A model generated the notes under the pieces. The model was not told where the DNA came from. It searched no databases and was given only the letters and a program-made list of their open reading frames with translations. Below are positions 21,035-35,365 of a stretch of 37,841 nucleotides of DNA, piece after piece. How positions within the stretch are numbered: the stretch's first letter is position 1; each line of letters begins with the position of its first letter. The DNA lies in the NCBI GenBank assembly GCA_018671895.1, contig JABHGV010000009.1, forward strand, positions 1 through 37,841, given 5' to 3'. Both the position numbers and the translations under genes were made by a program. This DNA comes from Rhodospirillaceae bacterium. Lineage in GTDB: Bacteria > Pseudomonadota > Alphaproteobacteria > Rhodospirillales > JABHCV01.

Positions 21035-23323
21035 ATGTTGAGGCGCTTGATTCGCGTCATAGGATTTGTTTGTTTGTTGCCGTTTCTTGGGCTTTCGTCG
21101 ACGGATGTCGCGGCCCAGACGAATGGTGGCGGCGATTCCGTGCGCGAAATCATCGTTGAAGGCAGCCAGCGCATCGAACCGGGCACCATTTTGTCGTACA
21201 TGCTGATCAAGGAAGGCGATCCGTTCGACGAACGACGGATTGACCGTTCCCTGAAAAGCCTGTTTGCCACCGGACTGTTCGCCGACGTCACCATGCGCCG
21301 ACAGGGGACCGCATTGGTTGTCAATGTTCTTGAAAATCCGGTCATCAACCGGATTGCATTCGAGGGCAATTCGAAACTGGATGATGACGATATCAATGTT
21401 GAATTATCGCTTAGGCCGCGCGTTATCTATACCCGCACCAAGGTCCAGAATGATGTCAAACGGATCCTGACGCTGTATCGCCGCAAGGGACGTTTCGCCG
21501 CCACTGTCGAGCCGAAGGTTATTCAGCTTCCGCAAAATCGGGTCGATCTGGTCTTTGAAATAAACGAAGGCAAGTGGACGGAAGTGCGCAACATCCGTTT
21601 CTTGGGCAACCGTGAATACAGCGATGCCCGCCTGCGCGAGATCATCAGGACCCGGGAAACCCGTTGGTATCGCATCCTGTCATCTGACGATAACTATGAC
21701 CCGGATCGCCTTGCCCTTGACCGGGAATTGATGCGCCGGTTCTACCTGTCCAATGGGTTTGCCGATTTCCGTGTGATTTCAGCTGTCGCCGAACTGACAC
21801 CAGATCGAAAAGACTTTTTCATTACCTTCACCATCGAAGAAGGCAATCGCTACACCTTTGGCGACGTCGCAATGGATATCAAGCTGCGCGACCTGAAGGG
21901 CGAAGACATTGAGGATGTCATCGAGGTTGAATCAGAAGACTGGTTCGATTCAGAAGTCGTGGAGACGACAATTGACGATTTGACCGATGCCATTGGCACC
22001 CTTGGGTTTGCGTTTGTCGATATTCGCCCGAGAATTAACCGCAACCGTGAGGCCAAGACCATCGATGTGACCTTTGAGATTAATGAAGGTCCGCGGGTGT
22101 TCGTCGAGAAAATTGATATTGAAGGAAATGTCAGAACCGCAGACGAGGTCATCCGCCGGGAGTTCCGACTGGTCGAAGGAGACGCTTTCAATACCGCCAA
22201 GTTGAAACGGTCCAAGCAACGTCTAGAGGACCTGGATTTCTTTGAAACAGTCACGGTTGAACGGGTGCCCGGAAAAGAACCTGACAAGACATCAGTCAAG
22301 GTTGGTGTCGAAGAAAAGTCGACCGGGTCGCTGTCACTTGGGTTCGGGTTCTCGACGACCAGCGGTATTCTGGGTGATATCGGCATTACGGAACGTAACC
22401 TGCTTGGCCGTGGTCAGTATCTGAAATTGAAGACCCTGTTGTCGGCGACCGGAAGCCAGATCGACCTGAGCTTTACCGAGCCATACTTCATGGACCGCGA
22501 CGTTGCAGCCGGATTTGGTGTTTTCCATACCACCACCGATCGACAGGATGTCAGCTCTTACGACACCCAACAGACAGGTGTTTCGCTGCGTATTGGGTAC
22601 CCGATTACGGAAGACCTAAGGCAAAGCTGGAATCACACCATTAAACAATCAGAAGTCACGGATGTTCCGTCGACCGCTTCCATTTATGTCCAGGAAGCCG
22701 AAGGTGAATACATTGAATCCGTCCTTTCCCACGGCATCGCCCTTGATAAACGGGATAGTAAAACGCTTCCCACGAAAGGCTATATTCTGCGTATGAATAA
22801 TGACGTGGCCGGGCTTGGCGGGGCGAAACGATATATGCGAAACGTCCTCAGTGGCGGTAAGTACTTCCCGATTTATGACCAGTGGGTGCTGTCTGTCGGC
22901 GGCAGCGCGGGCCATATATTCGGCATTGGCAAGGACGTTAGCTTGCTGGACAGGTTCTTTATTGGCGGTGATGACTTGCGCGGATTTGCGACATCCGGCG
23001 TTGGCCCAAGGGATGCGACGACCAAGGATGCGCTTGGCGGCGAATGGATGTACAAGGGCACCGTGCAGTTGAAATTTCCGTTGGGGCTGCCGGAAGAACT
23101 TGGCATTTCAGGCAAGTTATTTTCTGATTTCGGCAGCACCGGCAAGATCGACAGCACAACAGCAGACGTCAACGATACCGGAAGTATTCGCGCGTCTGTC
23201 GGAACCGGGCTTGAATGGGTGTCACCGTTCGGCCCCATCGCCATCGATTTTGGCTTCCCCGTTGTTAAAGAAAACTTTGACGAAACAGAGACCGTTCGAG
23301 TCAATTTCGGCACCAGATTCTAG
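21035..23323 (+). CDS. bamA: Outer membrane protein assembly factor BamA
   Basis: BamA inserts beta-barrel proteins into the outer membrane. The 762-residue precursor has an N-terminal signal peptide (hydrophobic residues ~6-22, likely cleaved after VAA near residue 28). Five POTRA domains follow to about residue 420, then a 16-strand barrel. FFIGGDDLRGFATSGVGPRD near residue 647 contains the (V/L)RGF motif of Omp85 proteins, and the C-terminus VRVNFGTRF ends in phenylalanine, the usual signal for BamA-dependent assembly. GGGGGG lies a few bases before ATG 21035. skp follows after nine bases. Confidence 0.97.
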   Translation: MLRRLIRVIGFVCLLPFLGLSSTDVAAQTNGGGDSVREIIVEGSQRIEPGTILSYMLIKEGDPFDERRIDRSLKSLFATGLFADVTMRRQGTALVVNVLENPVINRIAFEGNSKLDDDDINVELSLRPRVIYTRTKVQNDVKRILTLYRRKGRFAATVEPKVIQLPQNRVDLVFEINEGKWTEVRNIRFLGNREYSDARLREIIRTRETRWYRILSSDDNYDPDRLALDRELMRRFYLSNGFADFRVISAVAELTPDRKDFFITFTIEEGNRYTFGDVAMDIKLRDLKGEDIEDVIEVESEDWFDSEVVETTIDDLTDAIGTLGFAFVDIRPRINRNREAKTIDVTFEINEGPRVFVEKIDIEGNVRTADEVIRREFRLVEGDAFNTAKLKRSKQRLEDLDFFETVTVERVPGKEPDKTSVKVGVEEKSTGSLSLGFGFSTTSGILGDIGITERNLLGRGQYLKLKTLLSATGSQIDLSFTEPYFMDRDVAAGFGVFHTTTDRQDVSSYDTQQTGVSLRIGYPITEDLRQSWNHTIKQSEVTDVPSTASIYVQEAEGEYIESVLSHGIALDKRDSKTLPTKGYILRMNNDVAGLGGAKRYMRNVLSGGKYFPIYDQWVLSVGGSAGHIFGIGKDVSLLDRFFIGGDDLRGFATSGVGPRDATTKDALGGEWMYKGTVQLKFPLGLPEELGISGKLFSDFGSTGKIDSTTADVNDTGSIRASVGTGLEWVSPFGPIAIDFGFPVVKENFDETETVRVNFGTRF

Positions 23324-23923: not shown

Positions 23924-24946
23924 ATGACCGATCCCAGGTTCTATACGGTTGCCGGCCCCTTTACATTGGGTGAACTGGCCAAGATCACAGGGGCAGATAT
24001 CGCCGAGGGCGTCAATTCGGACGCCCGTTATAGTGATGTTGCGCCGCTCAGCGAAGCGGGACCCGATGACATCAGCTTCCTTGATAACAAGAAATACGTA
24101 AACGATTTTACCAAGACCAAAGCCGGGGCGGTGATCGTGCATCCTGATCTCGCGTCAAAAGCGCCCGATGGGCTGGCGTTGTTGTTATCCCAAGAGCCTT
24201 ATCGCGGCTATGCGCGAATCGCAAATGCGTTTTACCCTGTTCGGGAAGTGCAAACGGCGGAATCGGATGCGGCCTCTATTGACGAGACAGCGGTTATTGG
24301 CGAGGGATGCCAAATTGCCTCTGGCGTTGTTATTGGCCCAGACGTTGAAATTGGTAAGCAGTGCGTTATCGGGGCCAACACCGTTATTTGTAAAGGGGTT
24401 GTTGTTGGCGATGCGTGCAGCATCGGGTCATCGGTTACCCTTCAGTATTGTCAGATTGGTGACAATGCCATCATTCATACCGGTGTCAGGATAGGACAGG
24501 ACGGTTTTGGTTTCGCTATGGGGGCAGAAGGGCACGTGAAAGTGCCGCAGCTGGGACGAGTGATTATCGGCGATGATGTTGAAATCGGTGCCAATTCGAC
24601 CATTGATAGGGGCACTGGTCCGGACACGGAAATCGGGTCTGGAACAAAAATTGATAACCTTGTGCAGTTGGGCCATAACGTCAAACTGGGACGCAGCTGC
24701 ATTCTTGTTTCGCAGTCTGGAGTTTCCGGTTCTACTGTGCTTGGGGATTTCGTCGTCGTTGGCGGACAGGTCGGTATAGCCGGTCATCTGACAATAGGCA
24801 GTGGCGTGCAAATTGCTGCGAAAAGTGGCGTTATGCGCGATATTGAACCCGGTGGTAAGGTCGGAGGCTATCCGGCAAAACCCTTTACGCAGTGGATGCG
24901 TAGTCTGGCGTTAATCGATAAACTGGTAAAAACGAGGGGCAAATAG
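23924..24946 (+). CDS. lpxD: UDP-3-O-acylglucosamine N-acyltransferase
   Basis: LpxD adds the second acyl chain to UDP-glucosamine in lipid A synthesis, using an acyl-ACP. The 340-residue protein has an N-terminal uridine-binding domain (residues ~1-110, [18 protein letters not shown]). A left-handed parallel beta-helix of hexapeptide repeats (residues ~115-310) follows, with [13 protein letters not shown] carrying the likely catalytic histidine. A C-terminal helix ends it. AAGGAAG abuts ATG 23924, giving unusually short spacing. fabZ begins two bases after its stop. Confidence 0.96.
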
Positions 24947-24948
24947 AC

Positions 24949-25413
24949 GTGTCGAAGGAAAATTCACAAGACAACGAAATTGATATCGTCCGGGTTATGG
25001 AAATGATCCCGCATCGCTATCCGTTCCTGATGATCGACAGGGTTGTCGATGTTGTTCCCGACGAAAGCGCTGTTGGTATCAAGAACGTCACCATCAACGA
25101 GCCGTTCTTTCAGGGGCATTTCCCTGGACATCCGGTATTTCCGGGCGTGTTGATTATTGAATCAATGGCCCAGACCGCAGCAGTGCTGGTGGTTAAGACC
25201 ATGGGTGCAGAGTCAGAAGGAAAACTGGTTTATTTCATGTCCGTCGATCAGGCCCGATTCAGGAAACCGGTAACCCCCGGCGACACCATGAATATTATTG
25301 TCGAGAAGGTCCGCAATCGTGGCAATGTCTGGAAATTCAAGGGCAAGGCCATGGTCGGCGATACGTTAATGGCGGAAGCGACATTTTCCGCAATGATTGT
25401 GGATGGTGAATAA
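24949..25413 (+). CDS. fabZ: 3-hydroxyacyl-[acyl-carrier-protein] dehydratase FabZ
   Basis: FabZ dehydrates 3-hydroxyacyl-ACP in fatty acid elongation and so competes with LpxA/LpxD for the same 3-hydroxyacyl-ACP pool. The 154-residue hot-dog-fold protein has His57 in [12 protein letters not shown] and Glu71 in IIESMAQ as the expected catalytic pair. The start is GTG 24949, two bases after the lpxD stop. GAGGGGC near the lpxD end can act as ribosome binding site. It sits between lpxD and lpxA, the common proteobacterial order. Confidence 0.96.
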
Positions 25414-25414
25414 T

Positions 25415-26215
25415 ATGACTGATATTCATGCAACAGCCATCGTGGCTGACGCCGCCGAGATCGGTGAAAACGTCTCTATTGGCCCTTACTGCATTGTTGG
25501 TGGGGATGTGAAGCTGGCCGATGGTGTCGAGCTTTTATCCCATGTGGTTGTCGATGGTGATACCAGCATCGGGGCCAACACTCGGATTTTCCCGTTTGCG
25601 TCCATTGGGCTGCAGCCTCAGGACCTGAAATACGATGGCGAGGCTTCGCGGCTGGAAATTGGCTGCAATAACGTTATTCGAGAACATGTCACCATGAACC
25701 CCGGTACCGATGGCGGCGGCCTGCTGACGACGGTCGGCAACAACTGTCTGTTCATGGTCGGTGCCCATGTCGCCCATGACTGTCACGTTGGCGATCATGT
25801 AATTTTGGTCAATAACGCGACCCTCGGTGGGCATGTGAATATTGATGAATGGGCTATTATCGGTGGTTTGTCAGCGATCCATCAATTTGTTCGAATTGGT
25901 CGTCACGCCATGATCGGCGGTATGTCGGGCATTGAAAACGATGTCATTCCCTATGGCTCGGTGATCGGCAACCGGGCTCGTTTGCAGGGCCTAAACGTGG
26001 TTGGTCTGAAACGACGTAACTTTGATCGCGAAACCATCCATGCGCTCAGAAATGCCTATCGTCTGATGTTTGCACCCGAAGGAACCATGGCCGAACGTAT
26101 GGACGATGTCGCTGAAATGATGAGCGAAATCGAACCGGTAATGGAAATCGTCGATTTCATCCGCGCGGAATCATCGCGCTCTATCTGCCAGCCCAATCTG
26201 GAAGATGCCGCCTAA
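25415..26215 (+). CDS. lpxA: Acyl-[ACP]--UDP-N-acetylglucosamine O-acyltransferase
   Basis: LpxA transfers the first 3-hydroxyacyl chain to UDP-GlcNAc, the first step of lipid A synthesis. The 266-residue protein is a left-handed beta-helix of hexapeptide repeats (residues ~1-185) with a C-terminal helical domain. The catalytic-type histidine is His121 in AHVAHDCHVGD, and SGIENDVIPYGSVIGNRA forms the acyl-length ruler region. ATG 25415 follows the fabZ stop by one base, with GGATGG upstream; the open frame before it lies inside fabZ. The last 11 bases overlap the next gene. Confidence 0.96.
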   Translation: MTDIHATAIVADAAEIGENVSIGPYCIVGGDVKLADGVELLSHVVVDGDTSIGANTRIFPFASIGLQPQDLKYDGEASRLEIGCNNVIREHVTMNPGTDGGGLLTTVGNNCLFMVGAHVAHDCHVGDHVILVNNATLGGHVNIDEWAIIGGLSAIHQFVRIGRHAMIGGMSGIENDVIPYGSVIGNRARLQGLNVVGLKRRNFDRETIHALRNAYRLMFAPEGTMAERMDDVAEMMSEIEPVMEIVDFIRAESSRSICQPNLEDAA

Positions 26216-28196
26216 ACTCGGCATCCTGGCAGGTGGCGGCGAGCTGCCGTCACGCCTTGTGGAACACTGCCGGAATACCGGCCGCGAGGTCTTCGTCATT
26301 GCCTTTGAAGGGCAGACGTTACACGAAAGCGTGCAATCCGTTGATCATCAGTGGGTTCGACTTGGAGCCGCCGGCACCAGCCTGAAGGCGCTTAAAAGTG
26401 CGGGCGTCAAGGAACTGGTCATGGCCGGGGCCATTCGACGGCCGAGCCTTGGCGAGCTGCGTCCCGACATGTGGGCGACAAAGTTCTTTGCCAAATCCGG
26501 GGCGGCGTCGCTTGGCGACGACGGCCTGTTGTCCGCCATCGTTAAACTGCTGGAACAGGAAGGCTTCAGCGTCGTCGGTATCGATGATGTGTTGCCCGAC
26601 ACCCTTGCCGCTGATGGCGTTTATGGTTCTGTTCAGCCCGACGATGTTGCCAGACAAGATATGGACGTTGCCCTGACGGCGGCATTGGCCGTTGGCAGTG
26701 CCGATAAGGGCCAGGGAGCCGTTGCCAGGAACGGGGAGGTACTTGCCGTCGAAGATGTCAGCGGCACCGATGCGATGCTGCAAAAAGTGTCTGACGCGCA
26801 CGACAGTGAAAAAGGCGGTGTGCTGGTCAAGGTCAGCAAGCCCGGTCAGGAACGACGTGCCGATCTGCCGACGATCGGGGTTGCGACCATCGAGAATGCG
26901 GCTCGTGCCGGTTTGTCCGGTATTGCCATCGAGGCCAAATCGGCCCTTATTGTCGATACAGAAGCCGTTATCCGGGCTGCCGATGCCGCCGGCGTTTTCA
27001 TTGTTGGCATATCCGTCGATGTGCCGTTGGTCTATGTCATTGCTGGCGAGCCGTCCGGCGATATTCTGGGTGCACGCCTGATGGCCGCCCTGAAAGAACG
27101 CGGGCCGGTTGCCTTTGCCGGGGTTGGGGGTCCGAAAATGTGTGAACAGGGCCTCGACAGCCTGTTCCCGATGGAAGACCTGACGGTGATGGGGCTGGCC
27201 GAGGTGCTGCCCCACTTGCCGAAACTGTTGGGCAGAATCCGGGAAACCATCGCCGACGTTCGCACCCGTCGTCCGGCGATCCTGATCACCATTGATGCGC
27301 CGGATTTCTGTTTCCGGGTTTCCTCGAAGCTGTGCGGCGAGGGTATCAAGCTGGTGCATTATGTGGCGCCGTCGGTGTGGGCATGGAAGCCGGGGCGGGC
27401 AAAGAAAGTCGCTGGGTTCCTTGACCATCTGCTGGCCTTGCTGCCGTTCGAGCCGCCGTATTTCGAATGCCATGGCCTGAAAACGACCTTTGTCGGCCAT
27501 TCGGTTGTCGAAGGCGGTGCTGGCAAAGGCGATGGGGCAGGGTTCAGGGACCGTCACGGCATATCGGGCGATGCGCTGATGCTGGTGGTGTTGCCGGGCA
27601 GTCGGACGAGTGAAATCAGCAGATTGCTGCCAATCTTTGCCGAAACCGTCGCCGGTCTGACGTCATCCCACCCAGACTTGAAGATCGTTATTCCGACCCT
27701 CGAGAAGCGACTCGGCTCCATCAAGGCGGCTGTCGCCGATTGGCCCATGGACGTGCTGGTTGTTTCTGGTGACACCGAAAAATTTGATGCTTTCGCCACC
27801 GCCAATGCAGCCATTGCCGCATCAGGCACGGTGGCACTGGAACTGGCGATATCGGCAACGCCGATGGTGATTGCCTATAAATTCAATGCCCTGACCGGCT
27901 GGATCGCCCGACGGCTGATCAAAACGCCGTATGCCAATCTGGTCAATATTGTGCTGGGACGCCTGGTGGTGCCTGAGCTCATCCAAGAAGATTGCCGCCC
28001 TGAGTTGTTGGCCGCCGCAACTGCAGAGTTGCTGGATGATGATGCGGCACGCGTTCGCCAGCTTGACGCAATTGAAGAGGCGCTGAAAATGATGGGCAAG
28101 GGCGGGGAGTCTCCGTCCGGGCGGGCCGCCGATGTGATAATGGGCATTTTGCAGGCGCCCCCTACCGGTGGCACGAATTCCGGAAGCCAGGTTTAG
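26205..28196 (+). CDS. lpxI-lpxB: LpxI-LpxB fusion: UDP-2,3-diacylglucosamine pyrophosphatase joined to lipid-A-disaccharide synthase
   Basis: One open frame of 663 residues carries two complete lipid A enzymes. Residues 1-270 are LpxI: LGILAGGGELPSRLVEHCR, AGAIRRPSL, then RRADLPTIG with Asp220 at the position of the aspartate essential in Caulobacter LpxI, and GIAIEAKSALIVDTE. LpxI hydrolyses UDP-2,3-diacylglucosamine to lipid X. From residue 273 the protein is LpxB: VYVIAGEPSGDILGARLM, GVGGPKM, IDAPDFCFRV, HYVAPSVWAWKPGRAKK, LPGSRTSEI and ASGTVALELA, about 391 residues, full length. LpxB joins lipid X to another UDP-2,3-diacylglucosamine. Only a few residues separate the domains and no stop intervenes. 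A GTG at 27021 could in principle restart LpxB. It overlaps lpxA by 11 bases. Confidence 0.93.
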   Translation: MPPKLGILAGGGELPSRLVEHCRNTGREVFVIAFEGQTLHESVQSVDHQWVRLGAAGTSLKALKSAGVKELVMAGAIRRPSLGELRPDMWATKFFAKSGAASLGDDGLLSAIVKLLEQEGFSVVGIDDVLPDTLAADGVYGSVQPDDVARQDMDVALTAALAVGSADKGQGAVARNGEVLAVEDVSGTDAMLQKVSDAHDSEKGGVLVKVSKPGQERRADLPTIGVATIENAARAGLSGIAIEAKSALIVDTEAVIRAADAAGVFIVGISVDVPLVYVIAGEPSGDILGARLMAALKERGPVAFAGVGGPKMCEQGLDSLFPMEDLTVMGLAEVLPHLPKLLGRIRETIADVRTRRPAILITIDAPDFCFRVSSKLCGEGIKLVHYVAPSVWAWKPGRAKKVAGFLDHLLALLPFEPPYFECHGLKTTFVGHSVVEGGAGKGDGAGFRDRHGISGDALMLVVLPGSRTSEISRLLPIFAETVAGLTSSHPDLKIVIPTLEKRLGSIKAAVADWPMDVLVVSGDTEKFDAFATANAAIAASGTVALELAISATPMVIAYKFNALTGWIARRLIKTPYANLVNIVLGRLVVPELIQEDCRPELLAAATAELLDDDAARVRQLDAIEEALKMMGKGGESPSGRAADVIMGILQAPPTGGTNSGSQV

Positions 28197-28227: not shown

Positions 28228-28292
28228 ATTCCCTCGCAGGCGGGAATCCAGTCCTTCGTCGAATATCACTGGACCCCCGCTTTCGCCGGGGT
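28228..28292. repeat. REP-like bipartite palindrome between convergent lpxI-lpxB and gltA
   Basis: Two 20-base hairpins (28228-28247, arms ATTCCC/GGGAAT; 28273-28292, arms ACCCC/GGGGT) flank a further inverted pair TCCAG (28247-28251) and CTGGA (28269-28273) around a 17-base loop. The whole is a nested palindrome filling most of the 108-base space between two convergent stop codons. The sequence style (GGCGGGAATCCAG and its partner) is that of dispersed palindromic repeats common in proteobacterial intergenic DNA. It could act as a bidirectional transcription end, though no T-run follows. Confidence 0.7.
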
Positions 28293-28304
28293 GACGGGCG
28301 CGAT

Positions 28305-31147: not shown

Positions 31148-33274
31148 ATGGGGGAAATTATTTCACAAATTCAGTCCAATAAGCCCTTTTCAATGGTGAA
31201 CGTGCTGTCTTTGCTGATCGCCGAGCGTCATCGCTGGGCCTTGTGGCTGCCGGTGCTGATGGGGTTGGGAATCGTCGTTTATTTCGGTTTGCCCATCGAG
31301 CCGCCCCTGTGGATGGGTATTGTCGGTTTTTTGGCTTCAGGCTTGGCAAGCTGGCGGGCGCGTAATCGTTCAGGGCTGCTCATTATCAGCGTTGCCTTGC
31401 TGGCCATGACAACGGGGTTTCTGGCGGCCCAGGTCCGCACGATCAGCGTCTCGGCCCCGGTGCTGCAAAGAAGCTTGAACGTTACTACTGTTGAGGGCCG
31501 CATCGCGATGATCGAAAGCCGCAACAAGGGGCTGCGGCTGACGCTTGAAAAGCCACGGATTACGGGCCTTGGCCCCCACGGAACCCCGGACCGGGTTCGG
31601 GTGACGGTCAATGGCAAACAGCCGGACATGGTTCCCGGCGACTGGGTCAGACTCAGGGCCAGCCTGTCGCCGCCGTCGCCACCGGCTATGCCGGGCGGTT
31701 TCGACTTTCAACGTCATTCCTATTTCCGGGGCATCGGCGCGGTCGGTTTTTCCTTTGGGCCAGCGCAGTTGACGGCACGCGGGTCCGGTGACGGGGCATG
31801 GGTGGCGCTACAAACCCTGCGCCGGAGCGTCTCGAAGAGGGTGTTGGCGGCGTTTGATGCAGGATCACCCGTCGGCGGGGTTGCCGTGGCGCTGATGACC
31901 GGCGAGCGCGGGGCAATCCCGAAGACGGTGATGGAAGGCTTTCGCGATTCAGGACTGGCGCATTTGCTGGCGATTTCCGGGCTGCATATCGGGCTGGTGG
32001 CGGGAATATTGTTCTTTGGCATGCGTGCTGCGTTGGTGTTATTGGGTGGTTCCCTGGCGCTTCGACACCCCGTGAAGAAATGGGCGGCGGCGGTGGCTCT
32101 GATCGGGGCCTTTGCCTACGCCATGATTGCAGGCGCCACGGTGCCGACGCTGCGCGCCTTTTTGATGGTCGGGCTGGTATTAACGGCGGTGATACTGGAC
32201 CGGCGCGGTTTATCCATGCGGCTGGTCGCCTTTGCCGCGGTCGCCATCATGCTGGTTCAGCCCGACAGCTTGCTGGGTGCCAGTTTTCAATTATCATTTG
32301 CCGCTGTTATTGCGCTGATTGCCGCCTATGAGGTTGTCAGCGACCGGCGCAAGTCGCGTGAACGCCAAGGCAAGCATTATGGCTGGCTCGGCAAGACAGG
32401 TCGATACATTGGCGGCGTCGCCCTGACCACCCTGATTGCCGGGGCCGCGACCGCGCCATTTGTTATCTACCATTTCAACCGGCTGGCCGATTATGGGCTG
32501 GCAGCCAATTTAGCAGCGGTGCCGTTAACGGCGCTGTGGGTGATGCCGTGGGCCGTTGTCGCCTTCGCCTTGATGCCGTTCGGGCTCGAGGCGCTGGCCC
32601 TTGCACCCATGGGCTGGGGCGTCGAGGCGGTGATTTCCGTGACATCCGAGGTCGCCCATTGGCCCGGTGCCGTGACGTTGGTTCGCTCGATGCCCGACTG
32701 GGGGCTGGGACTTGTGGTTATCGGCGGATTGTGGTTGTGCCTGTGGAAGGGCCGATGGCGATTGTTCGGCACCGCCGGTATTGCCGCCGGACTGGCCAGC
32801 GTGATGTTGGTCGCTACACCCGATGTGCTGATCGATGCCAAAGGGAAGTTACTGGCCGTTAAAAATGAAGACGGGTTGCTGGCAGTGTCATCAAAGCAAA
32901 AAGCGCGCTTTACCCGTGATATCTGGCTTCGAAGCTTCGCCCAACCGGCATCCTCACCATGGGGTGGTGATACGGCTGCCCTGCGGTGCGACGATTTGGG
33001 CTGCCTGTACAAGGCAAAGGGCCGCACAATCGCGCTGGTCCGGAAACCGGGGGCTTTGGCGGAAGATTGCGGACGAGCCGACATTATTGTCAGCACTATT
33101 CCTGTGCGCCGGGCATGCCGGGGGCCTGATGCTGTCATCGACAGGTTCGATTTATGGCGAGACGGGGCACACGCGGTATGGCTGGGCGGTGATGAGGGTG
33201 TGCGCATCGAAAGCGTCAACGCCGGGCGCGGTGAGAGGCCTTGGGTTTTACGTCCGAAAAGAAAGTCTCAGTAG
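31148..33274 (+). CDS. comEC: ComEC/Rec2-family DNA uptake channel protein
   Basis: ComEC is the inner-membrane channel through which single-stranded DNA enters during natural transformation. The 708-residue protein has two N-terminal helices (residues ~30-95) and a soluble OB-like domain with [10 protein letters not shown]. The Competence domain begins at [20 protein letters not shown] (residue ~268) and has about seven helices, with [10 protein letters not shown] and [14 protein letters not shown] motifs. The C-terminal ~150 residues correspond to the usual metallo-beta-lactamase domain but show no HxHxDH motif, so nuclease activity is unlikely; this is common in alphaproteobacteria. ATG 31148 lacks a clear ribosome binding site; ATG 31193 is an alternative. 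The 3' end overlaps lexA by seven bases, tail to tail. Confidence 0.9.
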
Positions 33275-33966
33275 TTCCGCAGCAAGCCGACCAACTGGCC
33301 CTGCACCTTGACCCGGTCGGGCCCGAAAATGCGGGTTTCATATTCCTTGTTTGCCGGTTCCAAGGCAACCGAGTTGCCCTTGCGGCGCAACCGTTTCAGA
33401 GTCACTTCCTCGTTGTCGATCAAGGCGACGACAATGGCACCGTTATCGGCGGTCTCGCCATTTCGGATAATCACCGTGTCGCCATCATGGATACCTTCTT
33501 CGATCATCGAGTCGCCATCGACCATAAGCGCATAATGGGCACCACCGCCAAGCATGCTGGGTGGCACGGCGATGGTATTCGATGGATTGCTGACAGCTTC
33601 GATCGGCGCGCCAGCGGCGATGCGTTCATACAGCGGGATTTCCACGACTTGGCTGCCTTCGTTGCCGCTCGGCTGTTCGGTGCCGGGGATTTTGAAATTG
33701 CCTTCGATGACGTTCGGCGAAAATCCATTTGCCGCCGGTCGTTCATCCATGTTTTCCGGGCGTTTCAGCACTTCCAGTGCGCGCGCCCGATGGGCCAGAC
33801 GACGGATAAACCCTCGTTCCTCAAGCCCGGTAATCAGGCGGTGGATGCCCGATTTCGATGCCAGCCCAAGGGCATCCTTCATTTCGTCAAAAGACGGCGA
33901 AACACCGGTTTCCTTGAGGCGGTTATCGATGAAAATCAACAGTTGATGCTGTTTTTTGGTCAGCAT
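33268..33966 (-). CDS. lexA: SOS response transcriptional repressor LexA
   Basis: LexA represses DNA-damage genes and self-cleaves when bound to RecA filaments. The 232-residue protein has a winged helix-turn-helix (residues ~25-66; [20 protein letters not shown]) and a linker of about 40 residues. The S24 protease domain carries the cleavage bond Ala118-Gly119 (IAAGAPIEA), Ser153 (GDSMIEEGI) and Lys191 (VTLKRLRR), all intact. ATG 33966 is chosen because ACGGAG is correctly spaced before it and the family starts MLTKKQ; the frame extends 16 codons further upstream but into the leader. It has its own SOS-type promoter. It overlaps the comEC 3' end. Confidence 0.97.
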
Positions 33967-34022
33967 GACGGGAACTCCGTAACAAAAAAAGGCTTCAGAA
34001 CAAAACCAAAACACTTATTAAT

Positions 34023-34051
34023 GTTCTACTTTGGTTCTTTCGTGCCGTCAA
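34023..34051 (-). promoter_or_regulatory. lexA promoter with SOS box GTTC-N7-GTTC
   Basis: On the minus strand TTGACG (34046-34051) and TAGAAC (34023-34028) form a -35/-10 pair with a 17-base spacer. The LexA operator is GTTC 34023-34026, seven bases, GTTC 34034-34037 on the plus strand (GAAC-N7-GAAC on the other), the alphaproteobacterial SOS box. It overlaps the -10 and the adjacent spacer, so LexA binding would block RNA polymerase: classic autorepression. The lexA start codon lies 56 bases downstream. A degenerate second site (GAAC at 33998-34001, AAAC at 34009-34012) is in the leader. Confidence 0.9.
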
Positions 34052-34072
34052 GAAGGTTTTGTTTTGCTAACC

Positions 34073-34142
34073 GGAACCTGGATTCCAGAGAATGCGCCCC
34101 GCAGGGCGATAGCCAAAAAGAGGCTGTGCCATCCGAAGGATG
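34073..34142 (-). other. Four small hairpins in the moeA-lexA spacer
   Basis: In transcription order on the minus strand the spacer contains CATCC/GGATG (34130-34142), AGCC/GGCT (34111-34125), GCCC/GGGC (34096-34107) and GGAA/TTCC (34073-34086), each with a loop of 3 to 7 bases and little sequence between. None is followed by a T-run. They lie after the moeA stop and before the lexA promoter, so they may form a 3' processing or termination structure for the trp-moa-moe transcript, or be a dispersed repeat. Confidence 0.5.
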
Positions 34143-34144
34143 CG

Positions 34145-35365
34145 CTAAACAGAAACCAAAGCCCCGCCCAGACGCAGGATCGAAACCACGTCTCCGGCCT
34201 TTGCTGCCGGGGCTTCGGGCGCGCGGATGATCAGGCAATCGGCGACCGCCATGCGCGCCTGCATGGCGCTGTCTTGTTTGTTAAACGGAGTTGCGACCAG
34301 TCCGCCATCGACGCTTTCGAGGCTGGCGCGCAGGTAGTCCTGGCGCATATCGTTTGGCTTAAGGTCACAGCCAAGTCGGGCCGTCTGGGTATCTTCCGTC
34401 GCGTCGAGACCAAGCAGGGCCATGATTGCCGGGCGTAGAAACAGCACAGAGCAGACCGCGGTCGAAACCGGATTGCCGGGCATTCCGAGTACGCCCATAT
34501 CGCCGAAACGCCCTCCCAGTTTGCCGAACAGCAGGGGCTTGCCGGGGCGCATGGCGATTTTATAGAAAATACGTTCCAGTCCGTTGTCATCCAGCAGTGT
34601 GCCGACCAGGTCGTAATCGCCGACCGAGGCCCCGCCAATGGTGACCAGCAGGTCGCAGCCAAGGGCCTTGTCCAGCGTTTCGTTCAAGGATTCCATGGTG
34701 TCGCTGGCGATGCCGACATTGACGGGCTCGCCGCCCATCGCCCTGACGAATGTCACCAGCGAAAAGGTATTCGACGAAATGATTTGCGACGGACCAACCG
34801 GCTGGCCCGGCATGACCACTTCGTCGCCGGTTGCCATGATGGCGATGCGTGGCTTACGGCGTACTTTCAAGCTTGGCAAATTCATCGCAGCCGCCAATCC
34901 GATGTGGCGCGATGTCAGTACCGTGGCGGCAGTCAGCAAGACGTCGCCTTCAGAGAAATCAAGCCCGGCCGGGCGGATAAACACACCTGATTCAACACTT
35001 TCAAGAACTTTCACAACACCTTCGGAAGACTCGGTATTTTCCTGAATAACGATAGCATCTGCACCATCTGGAAGCGGTGCGCCGGTAAAGATGCGGACGG
35101 CTTGTCCGGCCCCGACCACACCGTCATATCCGCCCCCGGCTTGCGATTCCCCAATAACGTTCAGGGTTGCGGGAACATCTGCAACGTCTTGGGCCTGAAC
35201 CGCGTAGCCATCCATGGACGAAACCGCGACCGGCGGGTGCGACAGGTTCGAAGCAGCATCTTCGGCTAATACTCGACCAAGGCAGTCTTCCAGGATGACC
35301 TCTTCGGCTTCGAGCGTCTTGAGGTTGGTTTTAACGTGATTGAGGGCTTCGGCTACGGGGATCAT
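34145..35365 (-). CDS. moeA: Molybdopterin molybdenumtransferase MoeA
   Basis: MoeA inserts molybdate into adenylylated molybdopterin, the last step of molybdenum cofactor synthesis. The 406-residue protein has the expected domains: an N-terminal region with VAVSSMDGYAVQAQD, the GADAIVIQEN segment, and a MogA-like domain with RIAIMATGDEVV, VTIGGASVGDYD and FYKIAMRPGKPLLFGKLG. GMPGNPVST follows, then a C-terminal beta domain. Its ATG overlaps the stop of the upstream VOC gene (ATGA), so translation is likely coupled. The spacer after it leads to lexA. Confidence 0.96.
   Translation of the reverse strand: MIPVAEALNHVKTNLKTLEAEEVILEDCLGRVLAEDAASNLSHPPVAVSSMDGYAVQAQDVADVPATLNVIGESQAGGGYDGVVGAGQAVRIFTGAPLPDGADAIVIQENTESSEGVVKVLESVESGVFIRPAGLDFSEGDVLLTAATVLTSRHIGLAAAMNLPSLKVRRKPRIAIMATGDEVVMPGQPVGPSQIISSNTFSLVTFVRAMGGEPVNVGIASDTMESLNETLDKALGCDLLVTIGGASVGDYDLVGTLLDDNGLERIFYKIAMRPGKPLLFGKLGGRFGDMGVLGMPGNPVSTAVCSVLFLRPAIMALLGLDATEDTQTARLGCDLKPNDMRQDYLRASLESVDGGLVATPFNKQDSAMQARMAVADCLIIRAPEAPAAKAGDVVSILRLGGALVSV

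Follow-up and report, generated by a model that had tools for sequence, protein, structure and literature searches.

A single reading frame in a 37,841-nucleotide stretch of an alphaproteobacterial genome (here called the window) very probably encodes a genuine bifunctional lipid A enzyme, with LpxI at the N terminus and LpxB at the C terminus of one polypeptide, as judged from sequence. These two enzymes act consecutively in building lipid A, the outer-membrane anchor, and are normally separate proteins. Stand-alone LpxI makes lipid X, and LpxB joins lipid X to a second molecule of UDP-2,3-diacylglucosamine (PMC6286764). In the fusion, the LpxI domain, as the UDP-2,3-diacylglucosamine pyrophosphatase, would yield lipid X, and the LpxB domain, as the disaccharide synthase, would condense it with another molecule of the same substrate to give the disaccharide. 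The gene most likely originated by loss of the stop between neighboring genes of an lpxD-fabZ-lpxA-lpxI-lpxB operon, both domains being left whole, and in many lineages LpxB's own translation start would have been lost after the fusion. We infer that the product is one uncut protein with both halves active, and the main consequence would be that the two enzymes are made at a fixed 1:1 ratio and sit side by side at the membrane. The relevant features of the window are as follows.

21035..23323, + strand: bamA (Omp85 and POTRA domains), upstream in the envelope cluster
23924..24946, + strand: lpxD, identified by domain search
24949..25413, + strand: fabZ, with a FabA-like domain
25415..26215, + strand: lpxA (Hexapep and Acetyltransf_11 domains), sharing its last 11 bases with the start of lpxI
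26205..28196, + strand: fused lpxI-lpxB, a single open reading frame of 663 codons, from the ATG at 26205 to a stop ending at 28196
26205..27017, + strand: LpxI part, residues 1 to 271 (LpxI_N at 4 to 132, LpxI_C at 137 to 267, predicted catalytic Asp220)
27012..27026, + strand: junction, residues 270 to 274 (SVDVP), a five-residue loop
27018..28193, + strand: LpxB part, residues 272 to 663, a GT-B glycosyltransferase by Pfam, TIGR00215, and a fold match to 5w8n
27021..27023, + strand: GTG (V273), at the position of the LpxB start in split relatives, with a ribosome-binding energy of -1.5 kcal/mol

The initial annotation had described one uninterrupted 663-codon LpxI-LpxB frame, and this description was borne out, with exact coordinates, three Pfam domains in the same frame, and both folds whole. 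The open reading frame and its translation contain no internal stop. The Pfam matches are LpxI_N at residues 4 to 132 (E value of 2.1e-35; 122 bits), LpxI_C at 137 to 267 (9.8e-40; 136 bits), and LpxB at 276 to 628 (2e-100; 337 bits), the cutoffs being 25 bits for the two LpxI domains and 22.6 bits for LpxB. The fused gene is the last of a cluster of the usual composition (uppS, cdsA, dxr, rseP, bamA, ompH, lpxD, fabZ, and lpxA), and the 2.5-Mb, 98-contig genome encodes no other LpxI or LpxB. A TIGR01854 search of this 98.5%-complete genome gave no match to LpxH, while E. coli was positive in the same search. Both lpxC and lpxK are present. Two lpxK-family genes (L240 and L241, at G000:C63:1407-2252 and G000:C43:6964-7836) exceed the curated cutoff, where one is usual. 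Elsewhere in the window, a 329-codon open reading frame at 33241-34230 (+) overlaps the end of the one at 31148-33274 and has no Pfam match at 1e-8, and a palindrome at 28276-28296, just 3' of the fused gene, was suspected of being a genome repeat and dropped on finding that it occurs once.

The LpxI half resembles the Caulobacter crescentus enzyme (CcLpxI; PDB 4GGM and 4J6E) in its two-domain fold, in its catalytic and substrate residues except N74, and in its gene position after lpxA; it differs in having no free LpxI C terminus, as LpxB follows after the five-residue loop. Residues 2 to 271 of the predicted model superimpose on C. crescentus LpxI D225A (4j6e) with a Z score of 33.5 and 1.9 A over 266 residues. 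By structure-based alignment, CcLpxI residues Q169, T187, D188, K214, D225, T228, and T233, catalytic and contact residues taken from PMC6286764, correspond to Q170, T188, D189, K209, D220, T223, and T228 of the fusion, with the numbering of the PDB chain offset by 3 relative to the published positions. The substrate contact N74 is Ala76 in the fusion, the sole active-site residue changed among those compared in either half. The NCBIfam equivalog NF047836 scores the fusion at 227 bits against a cutoff of 400, and stand-alone LpxIs from Thalassospira, Azospirillum, and Cognatishimia score 195 to 261 bits; because these also fall below the cutoff, it does not discriminate here, and the idea that LpxI escapes annotation because of the fusion was dropped.

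The LpxB half scores 286 bits against TIGR00215 (cutoff, 190), and the model from residue 271 on matches E. coli LpxB (5w8n) with a Z score of 26.9 and 2.6 A over 291 residues. E282 and S284 of the fusion are identical to E15 and S17 of E. coli LpxB, which we take to be active-site positions. The other E. coli positions compared (PMC5785501, PMC6286764) are likewise identical: D98, V125, W126, and W128 correspond to D364, V391, W392, and W394, and R201, E281, and N316 correspond to R467, E546, and N581. The likeness to E. coli LpxB (PDB 5W8N/5W8S/5W8X) thus extends to fold, active-site residues, and a TIGR00215 score above the cutoff, the difference being that LpxI precedes the domain in the fusion, so that LpxB has no free N terminus. 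The LpxB half of the coding frame at 26205-28193 also resembles, in sequence and fold, the LpxB-like subunit found in mitochondrial complex I of Tetrahymena (7tgh, 8b6f, and 8gym).

All six sampled genomes of the window family (f1), the window genome included, carry the fused gene with no stop at the junction. Whether the joined architecture is clade-wide had been raised in the initial annotation, and the five other family genomes answered in its favor, a stop near position 27015 being found in none of these close relatives. The first relative set consisted of 100 related genomes, with the five others of the window family among them, and further searches covered 317 genomes of the order and a class sample of 385 genomes. 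Loci were classified by placing each half with tblastn and then asking for a stop between the halves. Among 132 LpxI/LpxB loci classified in this way, 48 were fused and 84 were split, a ratio that is not a frequency because the loci were partly chosen by score. A better lower bound is given by the order, in which at least 47 of the 317 genomes have the fusion, versus a single case detected in the remainder of the class sample; all fused counts are lower bounds from searches with strict E values. Within one alphaproteobacterial order, the fused loci represent eight families and 17 genera; one more family with the fusion (G514) lies outside that order but in the same class, and a 398-genome sample of the phylum yielded no fusion in other classes at an E value of ≤1e-110.

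Among the matches listed for named genomes, the only set to extend to other phyla, the fusion was present at 15 of the 77 loci scored. It occurs in a Rhodospira MAG and in a cultured isolate, Roseospira visakhapatnamensis JA131, as well as in the one-contig genome G071; L160, named a Rhodospirillaceae bacterium, has a fused gene whose junction is identical to that of the family member G002, and Thalassospira and Azospirillum have split loci. All classified loci of genera g48, g52, g96, and g103 are fused. Genus g49 is mixed, with three fused loci (L014, L041, and L092) and four split loci (L040, L042, L088, and L095), and is therefore well suited to a search for recent fusion or resplitting. 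One fused LpxI-LpxB locus (L176; QZKR01000166.1) is filed as Myxococcales; its linker is like those of the alphaproteobacterial family f2, so the contig is probably misbinned.

On a gene tree of 131 rows, built from concatenated LpxI and LpxB with the linker left out, fused and split states changed 14 times, with at least 10 changes forced by well-supported branches, whereas shuffled labels gave an average of 38.5 changes. The fused state thus appears inherited but labile. A 47-row mixture-model tree gave 11 changes and rejected a single clade of all fused genes (p-AU = 2e-86). The window family forms one supported fused clade. The fusion recurs in many related bacteria, apparently through independent origins, although such change counts are silent on gain versus loss, so that some splits (e.g., in g49) may be refissions.

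Why the fusion exists, as distinct from whether it is real, is the subject of two readings. The fusion may have been nearly neutral, to which we would give somewhat less than an even chance: cotranslated neighbors lose a stop easily, and the joined state would then be fixed by decay of the LpxB start, with no catalytic gain. The median distance from stop to LpxB in split relatives is 20 nt, and 34 of the 84 split loci are already in frame, one stop loss away from fusion (a share inflated by the class-level choice of loci); the variable linkers and the coexistence of both states in g49 point the same way. The persistence of the fused state in whole genera (six of six genomes in f1 and all classified loci of the four uniformly fused genera) fits this reading poorly, and so does its concentration in one order compared with the rest of the class sample. 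Outside the order, too, there are adjacent in-frame lpxI and lpxB genes separated by a stop, so that opportunity alone cannot explain this concentration.

The other reading depends on how the two halves are joined. An AlphaFold2 monomer model of the fusion has a mean pLDDT of 94.2 and a pTM of 0.90, and its secondary structure places the last LpxI strand at residues 265 to 269 and the first LpxB strand at 275 to 280. Since the fold matches cover residues 2 to 271 and 271 onward, both halves are complete where they meet. The domain limits proposed initially (residues 1 to 270 and 273 onward) were right in placing two whole domains side by side, with the handover itself shifted to residues 271/272, at about nucleotides 27015-27023. 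Among the classified fused loci, linker length varies between 3 and 27 residues and the linker sequences are unrelated; the window family has junctions of 4 to 11 residues. Longer Ala/Pro-rich or repeat-like linkers, of roughly 35 residues or more, were found in Roseospira (L182:2477-4570) and in a Rhodospirillales MAG (L165). In the Roseospira model, the domains are confident and the linker is disordered, with a pTM of 0.63 versus 0.90 for the window protein, a comparison of two monomer predictions from the same sequence set that is only suggestive.

Selection for substrate channeling, whereby lipid X made at the LpxI site would pass directly to the LpxB site within one particle, so that little lipid X is free and the two domains share the pool of UDP-2,3-diacylglucosamine, is possible but doubtful as the reason for the fusion. 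The repeated occurrence of the same fusion, evident from the state changes on both trees, speaks for such selection, and so do the conserved six-member family of the window protein, its short junction, and its confident whole-chain model. There is also a precedent in modeling: a kinetic model of the E. coli pathway, in which about 400,000 molecules of lipid X were predicted and 2,000 had been measured, neared the measured value only with strong product inhibition and suggested LpxH-LpxB channeling (PMC4412817). As for the channeling of lipid X suggested in the initial annotation, the widely varying linkers, together with the disordered Roseospira linker, make a common evolved channel or a rigid tunnel shared by all fusions unlikely, although the fusion may act through simple proximity or tethering. 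The motive advanced alongside it, the toxicity of lipid X, finds mixed backing: in Chlamydia, lipid X builds up to harmful effect when LpxG is overexpressed (PMC4807358), but strong expression of C. crescentus LpxI does not impede growth of Pseudomonas aeruginosa (PMC11202943), a result that also speaks against channeling. In the window family, with its short junctions, the two domains may perhaps be held more firmly. It is an unlikely extension that the active sites of this family stand in a fixed arrangement and hand lipid X on unreleased, in a repeatedly evolved coupled synthase/condensase. If true, this would be the first physical instance of the pyrophosphatase-LpxB channeling proposed from E. 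coli modeling.

Whether one protein is made or two bears on the stoichiometry. GTG and TTG codons are both retained at the former LpxB start of the window gene, and start codons are absent at this site in two of its four g2 sisters (G001 and G004). Of the 48 fused genes, 20 lack any ATG, GTG, or TTG near the LpxB start (20 in one analysis and 18 in another, owing to slightly different junction windows). The average Shine-Dalgarno energy of the best candidate start is -3.1 kcal/mol in fused genes versus -5.5 kcal/mol in split genes, with a P value of 7e-12 that overstates the difference because kin sequences were counted as independent. At the LpxB start of split genes the median ribosome-binding energy is -5.65 kcal/mol, and -4.5 kcal/mol is reached by 12% of fused genes versus 65% of split genes. 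Separate initiation of LpxB thus looks largely lost in the fused genes. Pairs of fused genes gave dN/dS values of 0.09 to 0.35 in both halves, indicating purifying selection, which together with the decayed internal start supports a single translated chain, although this chain may be cut by proteolysis. The fixed 1:1 ratio of LpxI and LpxB activities asserted in the initial annotation would follow from such a chain, provided that it is not cleaved; the loss of separate initiation favors the claim, which holds only if the product stays uncut.

It is accordingly very improbable that two proteins are still made, by internal initiation at the GTG at 27021 or by proteolysis, leaving the joined frame of little consequence: that codon does sit at the ancestral LpxB start of the window gene, but its ribosome-binding energy is weak, and the two g2 sisters and the other start-free fused genes have no start codon there at all. 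A sequencing or assembly error near 27015, with loss of a stop or a shift of frame, is barely credible even though the window is drawn from a 98-contig assembly, since the same fusion occurs in five other family genomes, many other assemblies, the one-contig G071, and one isolate, and for the clade it is not an assembly error because those five genomes are fused. Counted against the bifunctional enzyme itself are the possible proteolytic separation, the GTG and TTG kept in the window gene, and the oligomeric state of the partner enzymes, as LpxI appeared to form dimers and LpxB dimerizes by swapping its C terminus (PMC6286764, PMC5785501), whereas the fusion was modeled as a monomer.

No description of an LpxI-LpxB fusion was found in the open-access literature, a scope that misses the key early LpxI papers, and this agrees with the initial annotation, in which such a fusion is not known to have been characterized. 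A 2010 survey placed lpxI between lpxA and lpxB and noted an lpxC/fabZ fusion but not an LpxI-LpxB fusion (PMC3087551). The lpxC/fabZ fusion (Bacteroidetes, Chlorobi, and Verrucomicrobia; PMC3087551) is similar in that two neighboring genes of the lipid A cluster are joined, but it involves other enzymes and nonconsecutive lipid A steps, with FabZ acting in fatty acid synthesis. E. coli LpxH and LpxB carry out the same two consecutive reactions, but LpxH is unrelated to LpxI, the genes are separate, and channeling was proposed there without a demonstrated physical link (PMC4412817). The architecture may already stand uncommented in public domain databases, so the new part is its repeated occurrence together with the loss of the internal start.

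Each disaccharide uses up one molecule of lipid X and one of intact UDP-2,3-diacylglucosamine, so that LpxI or LpxH and LpxB split one pool. That these two steps are the ones fused, and that the fusion has been gained or lost many times, provides independent evidence that they are functionally linked. Short-linker fusions, long-linker fusions, and split sisters within one genus are natural constructs for testing this linkage, and the fusion offers a good case of how operon neighbors turn into one protein.
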